DNA from: Cyclobacteriaceae bacterium
GTDB taxonomy: Bacteria > Bacteroidota > Bacteroidia > Cytophagales > Cyclobacteriaceae
Length of the DNA stretch: 64,000 nt
Direction: 5' to 3'
Assembly (NCBI GenBank): GCA_016787645.1
Contig: JAEUUF010000026.1
Span: 186,001-250,000, forward strand
Shown here piece after piece: positions 11,429-20,066 of the stretch. Both the position numbers and the translations under genes were made by a program. Numbering within the stretch: position 1 is the stretch's first letter; each line of letters starts with the position of its first letter. The notes below the pieces were generated by a model that worked only from the letters and a program-made list of their open reading frames with translations, ran no database searches and was not told the origin of the DNA.

Positions 11429-13111
11429 TTAAGGTTTTTGCAAAAACAGCGCCTCCCGCATCAGGGAAGTAGGCATACTCCCCGCCTTGAGTAGTCGCTC
11501 GTGAAACTCGCTGAGGGTAAAAGCATCGCCTTTCATTTTCTTATAGTCTTCCCTCATTCGAAGAATCTCCATCATGCCGGTAAAGTAACCGATGAAATAA
11601 CCCGGAGCAGCACAGCAAGCATCTACCTCCAACTGCGAAGCCCAGCGAAGAAAACCCACTTTGTCGGTCATCAGGGATATGGCCTCTTCATACGTCATCT
11701 TGCCGGTATGAAGTCCCACATCATAGATCACCCGGGCGTTGCGCCACAAACGCAATTGAAGCTGACGCAAGAGTATCTTGTCATTGGGAAAGAAGCCTGT
11801 CTCCCGCATGAGCTGCTCGTTGTACAGCCCCCACCCTTCTGAGAACAAACTGATGCTGTTCTTGCGCCGCAAAGGTCGTGGGTTGTTGGCCTGGTAAAGA
11901 CCGTGCACGTGATGGCCAGCATAGGTTTCATGTGGTGCGGTCACCATGATCACACCCCAGTCATGCTCAACGAGGTACTCCTTCTTCTTTTGGTCGTCCC
12001 ATTGGTCCTCAAACGGATTGATGTGCATCTCCGAGGTGTAAATGCTATCCTTGTCCTTGGCGCTCGCAAAATTGAAGTGCCCATAATAGGAAGTCTTGCG
12101 CAAGTACTCAGCGCGAGGAACAACGATTACTCGTTCCTTCCACGGTATGGGAATGAGGTTATGCTTGATCACATGTTCACGAGACTTGTCCACCCATTCC
12201 TGGTGAACTTCAATCATCTTGTGTGGATCCGGGTATTCATTTTTGATTTCAATGGCTAATTGCTGCCAGGTCTTGGATGGATCCATCTTTTTGGCTAACG
12301 CATCCAGCTCAGCCACGGTGGCGTTGAACTGCTGCCACCCAAACGCGTAGAGGCTGTCGGCGCCATAAGGCAGCAGATATTGACCTCGCAACATGGCGTT
12401 GTAAGTCGTTGCCCCCATGGCAAAATTGCCGGCTGCGCGCTTTGGAAGCTCTTCCTTCAGGAATGAAATGTACTTCTCCAAGGCAATTCTGGCGTCCCGG
12501 GCGGGCCCGATCAATTTCTTGGCAGGAGCACCTGCGCTCTTGATGAACTCAGGTATCTCTTTGTCAAACAACACAAATCCATTCTCCGCCATGAACACGG
12601 CCAGCTCCTGGAAGCGAGGCACAAATTGGTCGATCTGTTTCGCGCCATTCGCCATCTGCAGTGGTGCCAGCATTAGACGCTTTTCGACCTGGTCGATCTT
12701 CTTGCCCATCTCGCCCGGGCCGTTCAATAACCCGGAAATTCCCGTGAAAGTCATGTACAATCGCGGGTCCATTCTCCACGGCTGGTGTGTCTCCTGGTCC
12801 AGTTCGCGCCCCACGAGAATGCTCTGGGCAAACTTCCAGTCAATGAGGTCGTCTCCCTGGAGAGCGCTGGTATCGATAGCCCGGAGGCTGGTCAGTTGCT
12901 CCTTGGTTTTCTGCAGCGCCCGCTGGAAAGATTCGGCTGACATCGAATCGATATCGAGTCCCTGGCCTCTTCCCCGGGAGGGTGTTAGCTCCTTTACGAA
13001 TTCAGCTAGTTTCTTTGCTTCTTCCCCGGTGTCTTTGGCTGGTTTTTGATTGCCGCAGCTCATCATCATGGCCACGGTCATACCAAAAAGTAATAATCTC
13101 AACATAGGCAT
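11429..13111 (-). CDS. DUF885 lipoprotein (predicted zinc hydrolase), copy 1
   Basis: This 560-residue protein has a lipoprotein signal (MTVAMMMSCG, Cys at about 19) and a full-length DUF885 domain. It has a metallopeptidase-like helix APHETYAGHHVHGLY (HExxxGH pattern) and, about 35 residues later, SEGWGLYNEQL with the likely third ligand Glu. These are the expected catalytic elements of this uncharacterised family, which is distantly related to gluzincin peptidases. It would sit in the cell envelope facing the periplasm. A close paralogue lies directly upstream, separated by a triple repeat. Confidence 0.83.
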   Translation of the reverse strand: MPMLRLLLFGMTVAMMMSCGNQKPAKDTGEEAKKLAEFVKELTPSRGRGQGLDIDSMSAESFQRALQKTKEQLTSLRAIDTSALQGDDLIDWKFAQSILVGRELDQETHQPWRMDPRLYMTFTGISGLLNGPGEMGKKIDQVEKRLMLAPLQMANGAKQIDQFVPRFQELAVFMAENGFVLFDKEIPEFIKSAGAPAKKLIGPARDARIALEKYISFLKEELPKRAAGNFAMGATTYNAMLRGQYLLPYGADSLYAFGWQQFNATVAELDALAKKMDPSKTWQQLAIEIKNEYPDPHKMIEVHQEWVDKSREHVIKHNLIPIPWKERVIVVPRAEYLRKTSYYGHFNFASAKDKDSIYTSEMHINPFEDQWDDQKKKEYLVEHDWGVIMVTAPHETYAGHHVHGLYQANNPRPLRRKNSISLFSEGWGLYNEQLMRETGFFPNDKILLRQLQLRLWRNARVIYDVGLHTGKMTYEEAISLMTDKVGFLRWASQLEVDACCAAPGYFIGYFTGMMEILRMREDYKKMKGDAFTLSEFHERLLKAGSMPTSLMREALFLQKP

Positions 13112-13391: not shown

Positions 13392-15062
13392 TTAGTTATT
13401 AAATAATGCTTCTCTCATCAGCGAGGTGGGCATGCTTCCGCCTTTGAGTAGTTTCTCATGGAAATCACTTAAGGTGAAAGCGTCTCCTTTCAACTTCTTG
13501 TAGTCCTCCCTCATTCGCAGTATTTCCATCATGCCGGTGAAATAGCCAATGAAATACCCGGGCGAAGCACAGCAGGCATCCACTTCCAATTGAGCTGCCC
13601 ATCGAAGAAATCCAACTTTTTCAGTCATCAATTGAATAGCTTCTTCATAGGTCATCTTCCCGGTATGAAGTCCGACATCATAAATAACCCGGGCATTGCG
13701 CCATAAGCGGAGCTGCAGCTGTCGGAGAAGTATACGGTCATTTGGTAAAAACCCGGTTTCTCGCATAAGCTGTTCGTTATACAGGCCCCATCCCTCTGAG
13801 AACAGGCTGATGCTGTACTTGCGCCGCAATGGTCTTGGGTTATTGTCTTGGTACAAGCCATGGATATGGTGCCCGGCATAAGTCTCGTGTGGGGCGGTTA
13901 CAATAATCACACCCCAATCATGCTCAACGAGGTACTCCTGCTTGCGCTTGGCATCCCATTGTTCTTCAAAAGGATTAATCATCCATTCTGAATGATAGGT
14001 ACTGTCGGCATCTTTACTACGGGCAAAAGAGAAATTTCCGTAATAGGATGTTTTACGCAGATATTCTGCACGAGGCACTACAGTCACCCGTTCCTTCCAT
14101 GGAATCGGAATCAGGTTGTTTTTCGTAACATGGTCCCGGGCTCTATCTACCCATAGCTGATGAGCTTCAATCATTTTTTCAGGAGCCGGGTACTCATTCT
14201 TGATCTCGATAGCCAATTGCTGCCAGGTTTTACTGGGATCAATCCGCCGGGCCACTTCCTCCAGTTCCTTAACGGTCTTATCAAATTGCTCAAGTCCAAA
14301 GCGGTACAAGCTGTCCGCATCGTAGCCCAACAGGTATTGACCTTTGAGCATTTCATTGTAGGGTTTGTCACCCATGGCAAAATCACCGGGAGTTCGGGTG
14401 GGCAGTTCTTTTTTCAGGAACTCCAGGTAATCCTTCAGTGCGGAATGGGCCGTCGCATTGAGAAGCAGCAGCGAATCGGCCGAGACACCCGCTGATTTTG
14501 CAAAGGCGGGTATCTCCTTCTCAAAAAGAACAAAACCATTCTCTGCCATGAAGACGGCCAGTTCCTGGAAGCGGGGAACGAAAATGGTCAACTGACTTTT
14601 CCCGTTCGCCAATTGTATTGGAGTAAGCTTGAGTTGCTGCTTGACCTCTTCCATTTTCTTGGCCGGGTCACCCGGTGCATTCAGCACGCCAGATATCCCC
14701 GTAAACGTCATGAAAATGCGCGGGTCCTTTTTCCAGGGCTGGGTAAAGGATTGTTCGATCTCCCTTCCCATCAGGATACTCTGCGCGAACTTCCAATCGA
14801 TCAGGTCATCACCTGAAAGTCTTGTCGTATCAATGCTTCTCAGGGCAGCCAGTTGCTTTCTTGTCTGTGCAAGACCCTCTTCGAAAGAGGCGGCACTCAT
14901 ATCACTCAGGGCCAACCCCTGGCCCCGTCCTCGGGAAGGGGTCATCTCATTGACAAAAGCGGTCAATTGATCAACCGCCTGTTGGTTTGAAATGGTTTCA
15001 GAGTTTTTCGGTGAACAGCCGATGGCCATCAACCCAAAGGCAAAAACAATTCTAACGCGCAT
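13392..15062 (-). CDS. DUF885 lipoprotein (predicted zinc hydrolase), copy 2
   Basis: The protein has 556 residues and the same architecture as the downstream copy: a lipoprotein signal (LMAIGCSP, Cys at about 16), APHETYAGHHIHGLY and SEGWGLYNEQLM. The two copies are most alike in the C-terminal third (long identical blocks such as FIGYFTGMMEILRMREDYKK) and differ more in the N-terminal third. Copy 1 and copy 2 therefore look like a gene duplication that has begun to diverge, possibly with different substrates. No partner gene is evident. The gap 15063-15190 holds nothing I recognise. Confidence 0.83.
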   Translation of the reverse strand: MRVRIVFAFGLMAIGCSPKNSETISNQQAVDQLTAFVNEMTPSRGRGQGLALSDMSAASFEEGLAQTRKQLAALRSIDTTRLSGDDLIDWKFAQSILMGREIEQSFTQPWKKDPRIFMTFTGISGVLNAPGDPAKKMEEVKQQLKLTPIQLANGKSQLTIFVPRFQELAVFMAENGFVLFEKEIPAFAKSAGVSADSLLLLNATAHSALKDYLEFLKKELPTRTPGDFAMGDKPYNEMLKGQYLLGYDADSLYRFGLEQFDKTVKELEEVARRIDPSKTWQQLAIEIKNEYPAPEKMIEAHQLWVDRARDHVTKNNLIPIPWKERVTVVPRAEYLRKTSYYGNFSFARSKDADSTYHSEWMINPFEEQWDAKRKQEYLVEHDWGVIIVTAPHETYAGHHIHGLYQDNNPRPLRRKYSISLFSEGWGLYNEQLMRETGFLPNDRILLRQLQLRLWRNARVIYDVGLHTGKMTYEEAIQLMTEKVGFLRWAAQLEVDACCASPGYFIGYFTGMMEILRMREDYKKLKGDAFTLSDFHEKLLKGGSMPTSLMREALFNN

Positions 15063-15190: not shown

Positions 15191-15874
15191 TTATTCGCTG
15201 GCCGTAGTCAAGTCAGTTACAATGGCCTGCCGCTCAGAAAGGTACAGTTGGTAATCTGCAGAGTACACCATTCGCTCGCTGATCACCGTATGATAAAGTC
15301 CCAGGAGTCCAATGATCAATTCGCATCCTTCGCGCAATCCATGTTCGCCGCCACTGCATCCCGTCAGGTAGTCTACCATGCCATTCGATTTCGCAAAGTT
15401 AGCCAGCATGAGTGTGGAAGGCCGCGCGATCATCACACGCACTCCGCATTGCCTCGCCACCTCAAGATCAAGTACATCATCAAAGAAGAAAAGGACTTCT
15501 TCAGGGCGAAGGGAGTGAGTCTTGCAGAATTTTTCAAATACTGCCGCCTTGTTCTTGGCCTGGAAGTAGACCCCATGAAAGTGCTCCCGCTTCGAGAGGG
15601 TTTGAGCAGATTGATTTTCTTCCCCGGTAATAACCGCGCTCACCGGTAACTTGCCATGCTTTTTCCACAACGCATAGCGCAACATGTTGGTCCCCATGGC
15701 ATCCACCTCTGAAAAAGAGCTACCGCCGTCAGCCTGTTTGAACCCTTCATTAAAGACACCATCCCAGTCAAACAAGATGGCCCGCACCGTGGACAACCGA
15801 GTCAAAAAAACAGAAGGAGGGGTGAAAAACTCCCCTCCTCCCGATTCAAATAATTCTACGATCTCCTTGCTCAT
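15191..15874 (-). CDS. HAD phosphatase, KdsC-like (Kdo-8-phosphate phosphatase candidate)
   Basis: The protein has 227 residues; residues 31-200 align by eye with KdsC. It has motif I FDWDGVFNEG (DxD), then VITGEENQS, a Lys-containing GVYFQAKNKAAVFEKF and motif III FFFDDVLDLEVARQCG. KdsC removes the phosphate from Kdo-8-P, which fits its place as last gene of the Kdo8N operon, 23 bases after the transaldolase-CBS gene. It is longer at both ends than classical KdsC (about 180 residues). The N-terminal 30 residues are encoded over a hairpin plus T-run (15804-15839), so a start at the GTG at 15787 is a possible alternative. Confidence 0.78.
   Translation of the reverse strand: MSKEIVELFESGGGEFFTPPSVFLTRLSTVRAILFDWDGVFNEGFKQADGGSSFSEVDAMGTNMLRYALWKKHGKLPVSAVITGEENQSAQTLSKREHFHGVYFQAKNKAAVFEKFCKTHSLRPEEVLFFFDDVLDLEVARQCGVRVMIARPSTLMLANFAKSNGMVDYLTGCSGGEHGLREGCELIIGLLGLYHTVISERMVYSADYQLYLSERQAIVTDLTTASE
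15804..15839 (-). terminator. Terminator-like hairpin inside the 5' end of the kdsC-like frame
   Basis: On the minus strand the order is AGGAGGGG, a 9-base loop, CCCCTCCT, four bases, then TTTTTTT. This is an 8-bp GC-rich perfect stem with a T-run, the layout of a rho-independent terminator. It lies 60 bases after the stop of the transaldolase-CBS gene. It also encodes GGGEFFTPP of the longer HAD frame, so it may be a coding coincidence. Confidence 0.5.
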
Positions 15875-15897: not shown

Positions 15898-16908
15898 TTA
15901 CTGAGCGAGATCCTGGATGTCGAGCATCCCGACAGGCTTGGTGCCATCGAGTACCAAGATAGTATCCACGTGCTTCTGCTTGAAGATATCGTTCGCCACT
16001 GTCAGGGCGTCATTCTGCTGAACGGCCAGCGGCGCATTATAGCTGAATTCGGACATCTTCTTCTTGAGAATGGCCTGGCCTTCCTTCTGAAGTGCCCGGC
16101 GCATGTCTCCGTCTGTGAAGATGCCTTTTACATTCCCGTCGTTGTCGGTAATCGTGATGGCTCCAAAACCATATTCCGTCATCTTTACGATGGCATCGGT
16201 CAGTACCGTGTTCATGTTCACCACGGGGTTAACAGGGTTGATCACGTCTTTTACGCGCATGGTTACGAGGCGGGTATGTTCAATGAATTGCTCTGTACCC
16301 AGTGTAGTGAGGTTGTTGTCCGTAAGCCCTTTCATAATCTTCCACGGTGCTGTGATTGTATGCACACCAACATTGATGGCGTTGCGGATATGCTCTGCAT
16401 TACGCACCGAGGAGAACATGATCTTCGTATTGTAGCCATAGTGGTCTACGGCAAACACACACTGGGAGACGAGTTCAAGCGCGTCATGTCCCTGGTCCTG
16501 GAGGCGTCCAACCAGTGGGCATACATAGGTAGCCCCTGCCTTCATGGCCATGTAAGCCTGTTGAAGGGTGTACACCAGGTGAACGTTGACCAGCAGGCCA
16601 CGATCCCTGAGCATCTTGCAGGCGCGTACACCTTCGAGGGAAACCGGGATTTTAAAAACGGTCTTCTGAGGGTCGAGACCTAGCTTAAGCTGACGTTCCG
16701 CCTCCTTCACTACTTCTTCAGCCGTGTTGCCAAGCGCTTCAATCTGAAGCACAGGAACCATCTTGCTGAGTTTCACAATGAGCGCATCGACGTCAGTAAC
16801 ACCGCCACGGTGCATGAAGGTCGGTGTTGTGGTCAGTCCGTCGAGGAAGCCCAGTTTAAAGGCATCTTCAATTTCCTTGAGATCGGCTGAATCGAGATAT
16901 AATTCCAT
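15898..16908 (-). CDS. Transaldolase / fructose-6-phosphate aldolase-like domain fused to a CBS pair
   Basis: This 336-residue fusion is in the Kdo8N operon, directly after kdsA (14-base gap). Residues 1-215 match the small transaldolase/FSA family: LYLDSADL at the start, the Schiff-base lysine Lys86 in VFKIPVSLEG, and AGATYVCPLVGR. The usual TTNP signature reads TTTP, so the conserved Asn is Thr. Residues 220-336 form two CBS repeats (AITITDNDGNVKGIFTDGDMRR and TILVLDGTKPVGMLDIQDL), similar to the CBS pair of the arabinose-5-phosphate isomerase KdsD. No KdsD is in the window. A role in making or sensing arabinose-5-phosphate for KdsA is inferred. Confidence 0.8.
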   Translation of the reverse strand: MELYLDSADLKEIEDAFKLGFLDGLTTTPTFMHRGGVTDVDALIVKLSKMVPVLQIEALGNTAEEVVKEAERQLKLGLDPQKTVFKIPVSLEGVRACKMLRDRGLLVNVHLVYTLQQAYMAMKAGATYVCPLVGRLQDQGHDALELVSQCVFAVDHYGYNTKIMFSSVRNAEHIRNAINVGVHTITAPWKIMKGLTDNNLTTLGTEQFIEHTRLVTMRVKDVINPVNPVVNMNTVLTDAIVKMTEYGFGAITITDNDGNVKGIFTDGDMRRALQKEGQAILKKKMSEFSYNAPLAVQQNDALTVANDIFKQKHVDTILVLDGTKPVGMLDIQDLAQ

Positions 16909-16922
16909 GGTTAATAATTGGG

Positions 16923-17774
16923 TTAGGCTAATACAAGTTCCTTATCGCGGTATTTCACTTCCACCGCATGAAGTTCAAGAATGGGCTTCAAAAATTCTTC
17001 GAGGTCATATACGCAGAGCTGGCTGGCGGCATCACATAAAGCCTTTGAAGGCTCAGGATGAGTCTCTACAAACACGCCATCTACGCCGGCCGCCACCCCG
17101 GCACGGGAAAGTACAGGCAGGAATTCACGGGCGCCACCTTTTGAATCGGCACTCGGGATGCCATACTTCCGAATGCTGTGGGTAATGTCGAACACCACCG
17201 GGTACCCCAGGTTATTCATGTGGTAGAAGCTACGCGGATCCACAACGAGGTCATTATACCCGAAGGTAAAGCCACGCTCGGTGAGGATGATATTTGTATT
17301 CCCGGCTTCTTCAACCTTCTTTACCGGGTGTTTCATATTATCGGGGGCGAGAAACTGGCCGTGTTTAATATTGACCACGCGTCCTGTCTTTGCCGCCGCT
17401 ACGGTTAGCGTCGTCTGCATGCACAGGTAAGCAGGAATCTGGAGGACATCGACCACTTCTGCCGCTGCCGCAGCCTGATCAGGATAGTGAATGTCGGTCA
17501 GCAAAGGGAAACCAAACTGCTCTTTCACTTTCGCGAGCATCTTAACGCCTTTCGCCAGTCCAGGGCCATCGTAGTACTTCGCTGAACTGCGGTTATCCTT
17601 CTGAAAGGATGACTTGTAGATGATGGGAACGCCAAGTCGTGCTGAAACTTCTTTCAGCTTCTCGGCAGTCTTCATCATGATCGATTCTTCTTCAATGACA
17701 CAGGGGCCGGAGATGACGAACAATTGGTCGGCACCGCATTGGATATCCCCTACTTTCACAATTTTCTTCTTCAT
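16923..17774 (-). CDS. kdsA: 3-deoxy-8-phosphooctulonate synthase KdsA (metal-dependent type)
   Basis: The enzyme condenses phosphoenolpyruvate with D-arabinose-5-phosphate to give Kdo-8-phosphate in the cytoplasm. About 283 residues. The (beta/alpha)8 motifs are clear: KSSFQKDNRSS, LLTDIHYPDQ, IPAYLCMQTTL, VNIKHGQF and HPEPSKALCDAASQL. The N-terminal motif is SGPCVIE with Cys where the metal-free E. coli enzyme has Asn, and the other ligands (His in ITHSIRKYG, Glu in VETHPEP, Asp in LCDAASQ) are present, so this is the metal-dependent class. The frame opens at 17861, but the ATG at 17774 (MKKKIVKVG) fits the family and leaves 8 bases after kdnB. Confidence 0.93.
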   Translation of the reverse strand: MKKKIVKVGDIQCGADQLFVISGPCVIEEESIMMKTAEKLKEVSARLGVPIIYKSSFQKDNRSSAKYYDGPGLAKGVKMLAKVKEQFGFPLLTDIHYPDQAAAAAEVVDVLQIPAYLCMQTTLTVAAAKTGRVVNIKHGQFLAPDNMKHPVKKVEEAGNTNIILTERGFTFGYNDLVVDPRSFYHMNNLGYPVVFDITHSIRKYGIPSADSKGGAREFLPVLSRAGVAAGVDGVFVETHPEPSKALCDAASQLCVYDLEEFLKPILELHAVEVKYRDKELVLA

Positions 17775-17782
17775 GGTTTTTC

Positions 17783-18862
17783 TTAAAGTCTTCGGAAAAG
17801 ATCTTTTACCGTATCCAGCGTCACCTTGCTTTTCCAATCGGTGCCGATGGCATGATTCCACATATGCTCCAACTTGATGGACACATTGGCCATCGCGGTG
17901 ATGGTTTCTTCGCTCCAGCCTTTGGCCAGGTTCCTGGGCAGCACAATGTTGTTCTTGCGAATCATTTCATTAAACTCCGCAACACCCTGCGGATAGTAAT
18001 CGCCCAGGTGCTGAAACGCAATGCAGTTGGAGATACAATGTTTTGAGCCCAGGATTTTGGAAAGGCCGTAGGAAAGAGCATGCACAATCCCCACTTCTGA
18101 ATACGTAAGACTGAGACCACCCATGAGCGAGGCTACCATCAACTTATCATCATTCTCCGGGGTCTGCCCTGCTTTATCACCCAGGTAGATCTCTCGGCAA
18201 AGATCAAGCGCCTGATTACCGTAAGCGGTGCTATAGGCGTTGTTGAGTATCCCATCGCGCGATTCTATACAATGAATGTAGGTGTCCATGCCGGCATAGA
18301 ACCACTTGTCGCGCGGTACGGACGCAATTAATTCCGGATCGAGAACGATCTGGTTGAACACGGTCCATTCACACTTCAACCCCAGTTTCTTTTCTGGACC
18401 CGTTAGTACGGCTGTCATTGAAACTTCGGCCCCGGTTCCGGAAATCGTGGGAACTCCAATGTGGTAGATGCCGGGTTTCTTGATCAGGTTAAGCCCCTGG
18501 TATTTCACCGACGAGCCCTCATTGGTGAACATGAGTGAGACCGCCTTGGCAATATCCATGATGCTTCCGCCGCCAATTCCAATCACAGCGGATGGGATCC
18601 CCATGCTGGCCATCACCGAATCGCGAATGCCATCAACCTGCTTGGTGGTAGGTTCTTCCGGATCTACATCAATAAACTGCACAATGTCATCCGGTTGTGC
18701 GGGAATTCGACGCTCCAGGTCTTTTCCCTTGAAATAGTTGTCGACGAGGAAAAGCATGAAATGGTCGTTCTCTCCCCTTCGCTCTTCCACAATGGGTCCG
18801 AGCTGCGAGAATGCCCCGCGGCCATACACTGTTTTCTCTACGCCTTTGAAATTCTTATGCAT
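17783..18862 (-). CDS. kdnB: KdnB-like 3-deoxy-octulosonate 8-oxidase (iron-type alcohol dehydrogenase)
   Basis: This group III (iron/zinc) alcohol dehydrogenase has about 359 residues. The NAD-binding part has GIGGGSIMDIAKAVS and PTISGTGAEVS. The metal ligands appear in MDTYIHCIES (Asp, His) and in GIVHALSYGLSKILGSKHCISN-like sequence near residue 260-280 (two His). Next to kdnA and kdsA it is best read as KdnB, which in Shewanella oxidises C8 of Kdo to the aldehyde for later transamination. The ATG at 18862 overlaps the kdnA stop by 8 bases, indicating tight translational coupling; the frame itself opens earlier, at 18889. Confidence 0.82.
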   Translation of the reverse strand: MHKNFKGVEKTVYGRGAFSQLGPIVEERRGENDHFMLFLVDNYFKGKDLERRIPAQPDDIVQFIDVDPEEPTTKQVDGIRDSVMASMGIPSAVIGIGGGSIMDIAKAVSLMFTNEGSSVKYQGLNLIKKPGIYHIGVPTISGTGAEVSMTAVLTGPEKKLGLKCEWTVFNQIVLDPELIASVPRDKWFYAGMDTYIHCIESRDGILNNAYSTAYGNQALDLCREIYLGDKAGQTPENDDKLMVASLMGGLSLTYSEVGIVHALSYGLSKILGSKHCISNCIAFQHLGDYYPQGVAEFNEMIRKNNIVLPRNLAKGWSEETITAMANVSIKLEHMWNHAIGTDWKSKVTLDTVKDLFRRL

Positions 18863-20066
18863 ACGTCTTCTCGGCAGTAACTTTTTCAACTGCCGTGCGG
18901 ATCTTGCCGGCCAACGACTTCACCTCGTCTTCCGTCCACGTGCAGCGGATGCCGAAGGAGATCAGGCGCCCTACCACTTCCTGTGACTTGGGCAGCTGAA
19001 GGTTGTTGTAGTCCTGTGGTTTGTCATAGTGGTGAACCGGAAGAGGCGCCGCCGCCTTCAGGTCTTTGAGATGACCCCACTGGTTGATGAAGTGATACAT
19101 GTTGATGTACCAGTAATTGAATCCGCCAATGCCTGCTGCGTTGAATGCATCGACCGTGCGTTTGGCCGACTCGGTGTCGGGCAGCATCAGGTTGAGGAAA
19201 GTAGAAGAGTCTCCGGCAGGATCGGGCAAATTCGCGAAGCTCAACCCAGGAACATCCTTGAGCAGGTTCATCAGTATCGTTTTGTTCTTGCGATTGGCAG
19301 CAAGAATCTTCGGCACCTTACGCGTTTGGGCTGCACCGATGGCTGCATGCAATTCGCTGATGCGGTAATTGAATCCAAGGATGGGATGTTGCTCCATGCC
19401 GCGGACATTCCCCACATGGTCATGCCCATGGTCACTGTAGCTGTCGGCATGCCGGTAGCAGGTCTCGTCGTTGGTGACAAATACACCACCTTCACCGGCT
19501 GTGGCAATCTTGAAGAAGTCGAACGAATAGCATCCGGTCTTACCAAAAAGTCCCACGCTTGTTCCTTTATAGCTTGCCCCGAATGCCTGGCCAGCATCTT
19601 CAACCAGGACGAGATTATGACGCTTTATTACATCCAGGATGGAAGGCATATCGGCCATCTGCCCGCACATATGAACCAGCAATACAGCTTTGGTCTTCGG
19701 GGTAATGGCTTTCTCGATGCCTTTCGCGCTGAGGCAAAGTGTTTCATCGATTTCGGCGAACACTGGTATTCCACCCGCGAAAATCACCGCCTCCACCGAA
19801 GCGATGTAGGTAAACGGAGGTACAATTACTTCGTCACCCGCGCCTACCCCGGCGGCGGCCAAGGCACAGGATACGGCGGTGGATCCCGACGACACCGCAT
19901 GCGCAAAACGCGCCCCGGTGATCTTCTTCACTTCCGCTTCAAAATCCCTCGCTTTCCAAATATTGTTTCGCTGTGCTTCGTGGTTGAACCGGAATAGTAT
20001 GCCGGTCTCCAGTACGTCACTAATTTCTTTCTTTTCCTCTGCGCCAAAAAGCTCCGTTCCGGGCAT
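18855..20066 (-). CDS. kdnA: KdnA-like 8-amino-3,8-dideoxy-octulosonate transaminase (DegT family)
   Basis: This PLP-dependent sugar aminotransferase has 403 residues. It has the DegT fold landmarks SSGSTAVSCALAA, PPFTYIAS, LVEDAGQAFGASY and the PLP lysine Lys186 in SFDFFKIATAGEGG. In Shewanella, KdnA aminates the C8 aldehyde made by KdnB to give 8-amino-Kdo (Kdo8N). Adjacency to a KdnB-type dehydrogenase and to KdsA supports that role over amino-sugar transaminases of O-antigen or teichuronic acid pathways. It is the first gene of the operon, with a -7-like element 21 bases upstream. Confidence 0.83.
   Translation of the reverse strand: MPGTELFGAEEKKEISDVLETGILFRFNHEAQRNNIWKARDFEAEVKKITGARFAHAVSSGSTAVSCALAAAGVGAGDEVIVPPFTYIASVEAVIFAGGIPVFAEIDETLCLSAKGIEKAITPKTKAVLLVHMCGQMADMPSILDVIKRHNLVLVEDAGQAFGASYKGTSVGLFGKTGCYSFDFFKIATAGEGGVFVTNDETCYRHADSYSDHGHDHVGNVRGMEQHPILGFNYRISELHAAIGAAQTRKVPKILAANRKNKTILMNLLKDVPGLSFANLPDPAGDSSTFLNLMLPDTESAKRTVDAFNAAGIGGFNYWYINMYHFINQWGHLKDLKAAAPLPVHHYDKPQDYNNLQLPKSQEVVGRLISFGIRCTWTEDEVKSLAGKIRTAVEKVTAEKTYA

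Follow-up and report, generated by a model that had tools for sequence, protein, structure and literature searches.

Kdo synthesis conventionally begins with arabinose-5-phosphate (A5P), which is formed by the SIS-domain isomerase KdsD. The window described here, a stretch of 64,000 nucleotides from a Cyclobacteriaceae bacterium, raises the question of how this first step is carried out where the gene next to KdsA, the enzyme that uses A5P, encodes a small transaldolase joined to a CBS pair. An earlier note on this DNA had raised a non-orthologous replacement of KdsD as a possibility, with a regulatory or sensor role as the alternative. The distribution, linkage, active-site conservation and viral pairing of the gene, all read from sequence, now support the first of these. 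We find that the fusion very probably takes KdsD's role in Kdo synthesis, and we consider it likely that it does so as a replacement in which the transaldolase (TAL) domain would form A5P and the CBS pair would regulate it.

The fusion gene (15898..16908, minus strand) is listed as an open reading frame of 336 amino acids with an ATG start, and domain matches, PDB sequence matches and a structural model all resolve it into a TAL/FSA-like domain fused to a KdsD-type CBS pair. Residues 1-212 (16273..16908, minus strand) make up the TAL/FSA catalytic domain, in which alignment shows the catalytic residues kept and four residues specific to the clade; Pfam TAL_FSA (PF00923) matches residues 3-202 (E = 1.6e-33, 116.8 bits against a cut-off of 27). 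Residues 213-336 (15901..16272, minus strand) constitute the CBS pair by NCBIfam and PDB matches, with Pfam CBS covering residues 219-274 (E = 6.8e-13), and are the proposed allosteric (feedback) part. The AlphaFold2 model of the whole fusion has a mean pLDDT of 92.4 and a pTM of 0.73, and solved transaldolases can be superposed on its first half at 1.4-2.3 Å, the top matches lying at about 1.5 Å. This confirms the small transaldolase with a CBS pair, Lys86 and a TTTP motif that had been described from the letters alone, the motif being residues 26-29. The 80 best of 492 fusion relatives in named assemblies align over residues 1-334 or more, and the fusion clade occurs in 57 of 345 genomes sampled from the class, every frame being open and at least 334 amino acids long. 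Full-length relatives and open frames across so many genomes show that the fusion is not an effect of assembly or chance.

The description of the CBS pair as KdsD-like holds by score. The top NCBIfam match of this half is the KpsF/GutQ/KdsD model TIGR00393 (residues 216-329), although it covers only the C-terminal model positions 154-267 and reaches 64.4 bits against a cut-off of 203.7, and KdsD/GutQ-type CBS pairs rank first among PDB sequences (3k2v, 4o9k, 3fna). On the other hand, stand-alone CBS pairs of Bacteroidota score almost equally, and a CBS tree with long branches recovered no sister group for the fusion CBS pair, so that this part of the description does not extend to descent. In 4o9k the CBS pair presumably holds CMP-Kdo; a literature search on this ligand in the 4o9k CBS pair found no paper.

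The catalytic half belongs to the small transaldolase/FSA family by its barrel, Schiff-base lysine, Asp6, glutamate and phosphate-binding arginine, as judged from Pfam, alignment and model. It scores 153.1 bits against the FSA equivalog TIGR00875 (cut-off 245.95), 52.8 bits against the transaldolase equivalog TIGR00874 (cut-off 396.2) and 60 bits against TIGR02134 (cut-off 281.95), and in place of the FSA-type Tyr131, Gln59 and Asn28 it has Leu132, Glu57 and Thr28. A Pfam search gave no match to the SIS domain (PF01380) at the fusion gene. Classified on sequence grounds, the fusion is thus neither a member of the KdsD family, as it has no SIS domain, nor an FSA equivalog, given its scores below the cut-off and its altered active site.

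The fusion lies in a row of genes on one strand in the order aminotransferase, KdnB-like alcohol dehydrogenase, KdsA, fusion and KdsC-like phosphatase, and its placement in a KdsA operon by the earlier note is borne out. KdsA (3-deoxy-8-phosphooctulonate synthase; 16923..17861, minus strand; 338.7 bits against a KDO8PS cut-off of 314) is directly upstream; its frame is listed from a GTG, and comparison with locus L007 makes the ATG at 17774 the likely true start. The divergent KdsC-like HAD phosphatase (15191..15874, minus strand) scores 44.5 bits against the KdsC model, whose cut-off is 208, and matched no Pfam family. The KdnB-like Fe-ADH (17783..18889, minus strand) has as its best PDB match 5k8c (E = 1.6e-123), the KdnB structure, which is a 3-deoxy-alpha-D-manno-octulosonate 8-oxidase. 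The adjoining gene (18855..20066, minus strand) is a DegT/DnrJ/EryC1 aminotransferase by domain search, which we take to be KdnA-like from its position beside KdnB. In Shewanella, KdnA and KdnB convert Kdo to its 8-amino form. By analogy the cluster has the appearance of a Kdo operon that includes conversion to the 8-amino form; it shares with the Shewanella operon a KdnB relative beside an aminotransferase and differs from it in joining a Kdo-8-phosphate module with the TAL-CBS fusion. Elsewhere in the window, two tandem genes of about 560 amino acids (11429-13111 and 13392-15062, both minus strand) are 71% identical over 552 residues, an apparent duplication.

This linkage recurs among relatives. 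Among 80 fusion loci from named assemblies (the best 80 of 492, some ending at contig edges), KdsA is found on the same strand in 68, within 1 kb in 65 of them, a KdsC-like relative in 67 (within 250 bases in 66), and KdnA and KdnB together in 41, contig ends cutting some loci short. For the 12 loci with no KdsA nearby, 11 genomes were searched, and KdsA is encoded elsewhere in 10 of them and was not found in G189. The widespread occurrence outside Kdo operons that had been named as an argument against the proposal is therefore not seen. One Bacteroidota-type fusion operon (L089) lies on a contig of an assembly labelled "Azovibrio restrictus", which is probably a contaminating contig.

The host genome (4.0 Mb, 99.83% complete) encodes KdsB (194.6 bits) and the Kdo transferase WaaA (146 bits), which together with the linked KdsA place the fusion in a Kdo module. 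The genome search for KdsD that had been proposed as a check was run with both the SIS family and the KdsD model over the whole genome, and found none, so that the normal KdsD that would have spoken against a replacement is absent. The KdsD model gave weak matches only, among which the CBS half of the fusion scored highest (65.3 bits). A hidden A5P isomerase without CBS domains is ruled out, since each of the five SIS matches is another enzyme: GlmS (two domains), MurQ, GmhA and a phosphoglucose/phosphomannose isomerase (PGI/PMI). With KdsA, KdsB and WaaA present and KdsD absent, all the Kdo steps searched for in the host were found except the formation of A5P.

Across genomes that encode KdsA, the fusion and KdsD are nearly mutually exclusive. 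In the class sample of 345 genomes, KdsA was counted at E = 1e-50 (248 genomes; 239 over the cut-off) and KdsD at E = 1e-40 (196 genomes, of which 177 exceed the curated cut-off). The 248 KdsA-bearing genomes divide into 53 with the fusion only, 185 with KdsD only, three with both and seven with neither. Three of these seven are assemblies at most 80% complete, while the other four (G210, G438, G452, G493) are at least 95% complete; in G332 (67% complete) the fusion is present and KdsA was not found. Of the 148 genomes in a phylum sample, KdsA exceeds the cut-off in 107; KdsD accompanies it in 103, and the remaining four are three fusion genomes and one (G023) with neither gene. Furthermore, we examined 50 fusion genomes hand-picked from the 80 loci to thin near-duplicates, a set that overlaps the class sample; KdsD is over the cut-off in five of them and KdsA is found in 47, partial at contig ends in two and absent in one. 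G173 of this set and G425 of the class sample have identical KdsD coordinates and are probably one genome. All five KdsD genes neighbour a recQ-type helicase gene, and a mannose-1-P guanylyltransferase-like gene adjoins three of them as well (neighbours named by eye). Chryseolinea serpens is one organism that carries fusion and KdsD together.

Such a pattern could also arise by shared ancestry, if the loss of KdsD and the gain of the fusion had been unconnected events in a single lineage. The genomes are indeed related, the Fisher test of exclusion (p = 2e-42) ignores kinship, and in 14 of the 16 families that carry the fusion the genomes bearing it show no KdsD, all three genomes with both genes belonging to the other two (f64 and f67). 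However, the exchange recurs within each of six families (f1, f4, f34, f38, f44 and f68), where the fusion genomes have no KdsD and other genera have it. The fusion genome G154 carries what appears to be a decaying KdsD (L127, 1369-2277, plus strand) beside a recQ-type gene, with 193 bits, just under the cut-off, model positions 1-222 of 268 covered, and HGDLG and SKSGNT altered. The pairing with KdsA in viruses, described below, is moreover independent of bacterial descent, and we regard coincidence as most improbable.

The distribution also bears on whether the fusion could be an ordinary fructose-6-phosphate aldolase or transaldolase under CBS control, or a sensor that tunes Kdo synthesis and does not make its precursor. 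Its FSA/TAL fold, the role of CBS pairs as sensors and the few genomes that keep KdsD as well would all fit, but 53 of the 56 genomes with both fusion and KdsA would then have no known source of A5P, and it is on this ground that we set the sensor-only alternative of the earlier note aside and strongly favour replacement. The host also already has an ordinary small transaldolase of the TTNP type (C1:337342), and copies with no CBS pair sit with KdsA in viruses. An ordinary aldolase or sensor is accordingly very improbable.

If the fusion does replace KdsD, its chemistry should be reflected in the active site. Compared with the small transaldolase of T. acidophilum, the fusion shares the fold and keeps Asp6, the TAL-type Glu57 (Glu60 there), the Schiff-base Lys86, Asn108, Arg135 and Ser167, most of the catalytic apparatus of a family that includes E. 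coli FsaA. It departs from that family in having TTTP and not TTNP (N28T), His110 and not Thr (T110H), Cys130 and not Ser or Ala (S130C), Leu132 and not Phe or Tyr (F132L), and in its fused CBS pair. Twelve active-site residues are shared by 105 of 108 distinct fusion sequences, the most distant of which is 55% identical overall, and by all three viral TTTP proteins. The 108 were drawn from 117 fusions (79 of the 80 loci, 27 class loci, 10 fetched regions and the window) and are used in place of an earlier count of 88 rows, which included duplicate loci. All 32 ordinary FSA/TAL rows, from 32 loci of which two are viral, have Asn28 and Thr110, with Ser or Ala at 130 and Phe or Tyr at 132.

The three deviating fusions (L193, 4889-5890, minus strand; L194, 5413-6414, plus strand; L195, 4930-5937, minus strand) have lost Lys86 and most of the active-site residues, while the CBS half is kept and the gene is still open. 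KdsA was not found in their genomes, which are 97-100% complete and belong to one family. The catalytic site is thus retained alongside KdsA and lost in three deviants without it, although this loss may have been a single event, since the three genomes are related. These proteins are possibly pseudoenzymes with a regulatory role.

From alignment to the T. acidophilum transaldolase, we take the clade-specific positions 28, 110, 130 and 132 to be FSA Asn28, Thr109, Ala129 and Tyr131, FSA numbering being one lower than that of the fusion from Lys85 on, and the retained Arg135 and Ser167 to be the phosphate side of the active site. A 2026 study of FSA assigns stabilisation of the dihydroxyacetone donor to Asn28 and Ala129; in its account, the catalytic water and the proton transfers are organised by Gln59, Thr109 and Tyr131 (PMC13259622). 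Altered donor-site residues beside a kept arginine and serine of the phosphate side are what a changed donor with an unchanged acceptor would lead one to expect. The position of residue 132 has been engineered in another transaldolase: one report states that TalB F178Y turns the transaldolase into an aldolase (PMC3962226), and the title of PDB entry 4xz9 likewise records such a conversion.

Alternatively, the barrel could act as a ribulose-5-phosphate/A5P isomerase by way of an enediol, with Glu57 and His110 as acid and base and no cleavage of a carbon-carbon bond. The protein would still hold KdsD's role and act on KdsD's own substrate, with no need of glycolaldehyde, and His110 is found in 105 of the 108 distinct fusions and none of the 32 ordinary rows. 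Lys86 is, however, just as fixed (105 of 108), as are the remaining class I aldolase residues, none of which an enediol route would require, and we know of no isomerase in the transaldolase family. We therefore regard an isomerase as rather unlikely, both overall and among the mechanisms open to a KdsD replacement. Given such a replacement, aldol chemistry is somewhat favoured in our estimate, and any other chemistry would be a distinctly minor prospect.

The transaldolase domain also occurs on its own in viruses. Two scans of virus contigs, one among the 600 pattern matches listed and the other complete, yielded five relatives, of which three read TTTP and two are of the ordinary kind. The viral TTTP proteins are 213 amino acids long, have no CBS pair and are 62-66% identical to the TAL domain of the window. 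KdsA accompanies the TTTP transaldolase in all three contigs (L117, 5001-6385; L118, 5001-6373; L139, 1896-2726 and 10001-10639). In two of them KdsA follows the transaldolase with a one-base overlap and scores 233-240 bits against two KDO8PS models, just under the cut-off of one, and in the third it is encoded about 7 kb upstream, on the strand of the transaldolase, and exceeds the cut-offs of both models. The two genes would together make up a small viral Kdo-8-phosphate module.

Virus contigs commonly encode KdsA itself (at least 553 relatives). At 79 of 80 viral KdsA loci there is no transaldolase within up to 6 kb on each side, the exception being a TTTP contig, which implies that viral KdsA needs none; nor was KdsD found within the flanks (up to 6 kb) of the 80 loci. 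In the Synechococcus phage S-SCSM2R (L226), KdsA adjoins KdsB. The viral TTTP proteins resemble cyanophage TalC in being virus-encoded small transaldolases, but their best matches are about 39% identical and annotated as ordinary transaldolases.

A search of cellular genomes (345 of the class and 395 of the phylum) at E = 1e-50 found no TTTP transaldolase standing alone: members of the TTTP clade in these samples have frames of at least 334 amino acids, and two shorter weak matches read TTNP. No fusion was found in plasmid records, as none of 162 matching records covers 80% of the query. Phylogenetic analysis places the viral and fused TTTP domains in one clade (support 100/100); the branch that separates this clade from ordinary FSA measures about 3.7 changes per column. 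The viral forms stand beside the fused ones (91/83), and the fused group has 90/69, a weak case for its monophyly.

The KdsA that accompanies the fusion is itself unusual. Six clade-specific residues (A89D, R148M, K167H, Q231R, P233Y and S276C) occur in 68 of 68 fusion rows and in all ten unlinked KdsA of fusion genomes; the KdsA of the window has Asp89, Met148, His167, Arg231 and Tyr233. This comparison comprised 68 fusion and 25 canonical rows, five of the latter being second copies from fusion genomes; rows shorter than about 200 amino acids were excluded, and the viral column represents two contigs, each entered twice. Met148 aligns with R106 of A. aeolicus KdsA, of which a glycine mutant has been crystallised and which we take to bind the phosphate of A5P, and the loss of the arginine means that the acceptor may be bound otherwise than A5P normally is. 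Fusion-type KdsA would either have a different mode of A5P binding, which might involve the altered loop 231-235, or use a somewhat different acceptor.

Were the acceptor different, the fusion would make some other aldose phosphate and the altered KdsA a ulosonate other than Kdo-8-phosphate. The fixed substitutions in KdsA, R148M, K167H and A89D among them, speak for this, as does the highly divergent KdsC-like phosphatase. Against it, the KdsA partners of the viral TTTP proteins keep KANR and have K or R at the R106 position. A second, canonical KdsA is present in eight fusion genomes (G164, G168, G170, G176, G194, G300, G335 and G505), five of which (G170, G176, G194, G300 and G335) have no KdsD, so that A5P would be required there, although in assemblies from metagenomes such second copies might belong to stray contigs. 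The host KdsA is also over the KDO8PS cut-off, KdsB and WaaA are present, and the operon encodes KdnB, a relative of the Kdo 8-oxidase. We judge a different acceptor improbable; the canonical-type viral partners and the canonical second copies both suggest that A5P is what the TTTP domain makes.

How the fusion would form A5P can be outlined from these residues. Lys86 would hold a two-carbon glycolaldehyde unit as a Schiff base or enamine, and this unit would add to glyceraldehyde-3-phosphate (G3P) held by Arg135 and Ser167 to give A5P, the acceptor of KdsA. The substitutions N28T, T110H, S130C and F132L would suit a donor that has no C1 hydroxymethyl group of the kind found in dihydroxyacetone, and His110 may serve as a proton shuttle in place of FSA Tyr131. 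The glycolaldehyde could be free, or more likely come from retro-aldol cleavage of ribose-5-phosphate with no release of the fragment, which would amount to a net epimerisation at C2. We know of no plentiful source of free glycolaldehyde, and we favour ribose-5-phosphate because the free compound is probably scarce. By analogy with KdsD, the CBS pair would exert feedback control over the first committed step. A5P would then pass to KdsA, the KdsC-like phosphatase, KdsB and WaaA, with KdnA and KdnB leading to 8-amino-Kdo in many fusion genomes.

That FSA can make A5P from glycolaldehyde and G3P in vitro, as the earlier note had stated, is documented for E. coli FsaA, which cleaves A5P reversibly with a KM of 0.65 mM and a kcat of 3.6 per s (PMC6900487). 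FsaA or TalB F178Y have also served as A5P aldolases in synthetic pathways (PMC9947464). The FsaA reaction is the same as that proposed for the fusion, but its use there is engineered, with KdsD alongside, whereas the fusion would be a natural, dedicated form in KdsD's place. KdsD/KpsF/GutQ (TIGR00393; SIS plus two CBS domains) shares with the fusion its place in the Kdo pathway, a C-terminal CBS pair and nearly exclusive sets of genomes, but the fusion has no SIS domain and carries, as its catalytic half, a class I aldolase barrel from another superfamily. A literature search, in which few subscription journals were covered, found no transaldolase-CBS fusion and no transaldolase replacing KdsD. 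The protein thus combines known folds in a new architecture and probably represents a new enzymatic solution to A5P formation.

Taken to its full extent, our reading is tentative: a dedicated A5P enzyme may work by C2 epimerisation of ribose-5-phosphate through Lys-bound glycolaldehyde, having displaced KdsD and gained a KdsD-type CBS pair while KdsA co-evolved with it, and with a form lacking the CBS pair, overlapping KdsA, in viruses. The absence of KdsD from genomes that encode KdsA would otherwise be read as a gap in the pathway, and in many Bacteroidota the fusion would fill it. If this holds, nature has a dedicated aldol enzyme linking glycolaldehyde, G3P and A5P with an allosteric domain attached, which would offer natural enzymes to metabolic engineers who now rely on FsaA. 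It would also imply that inhibitors of KdsD would miss the organisms that bear the fusion.
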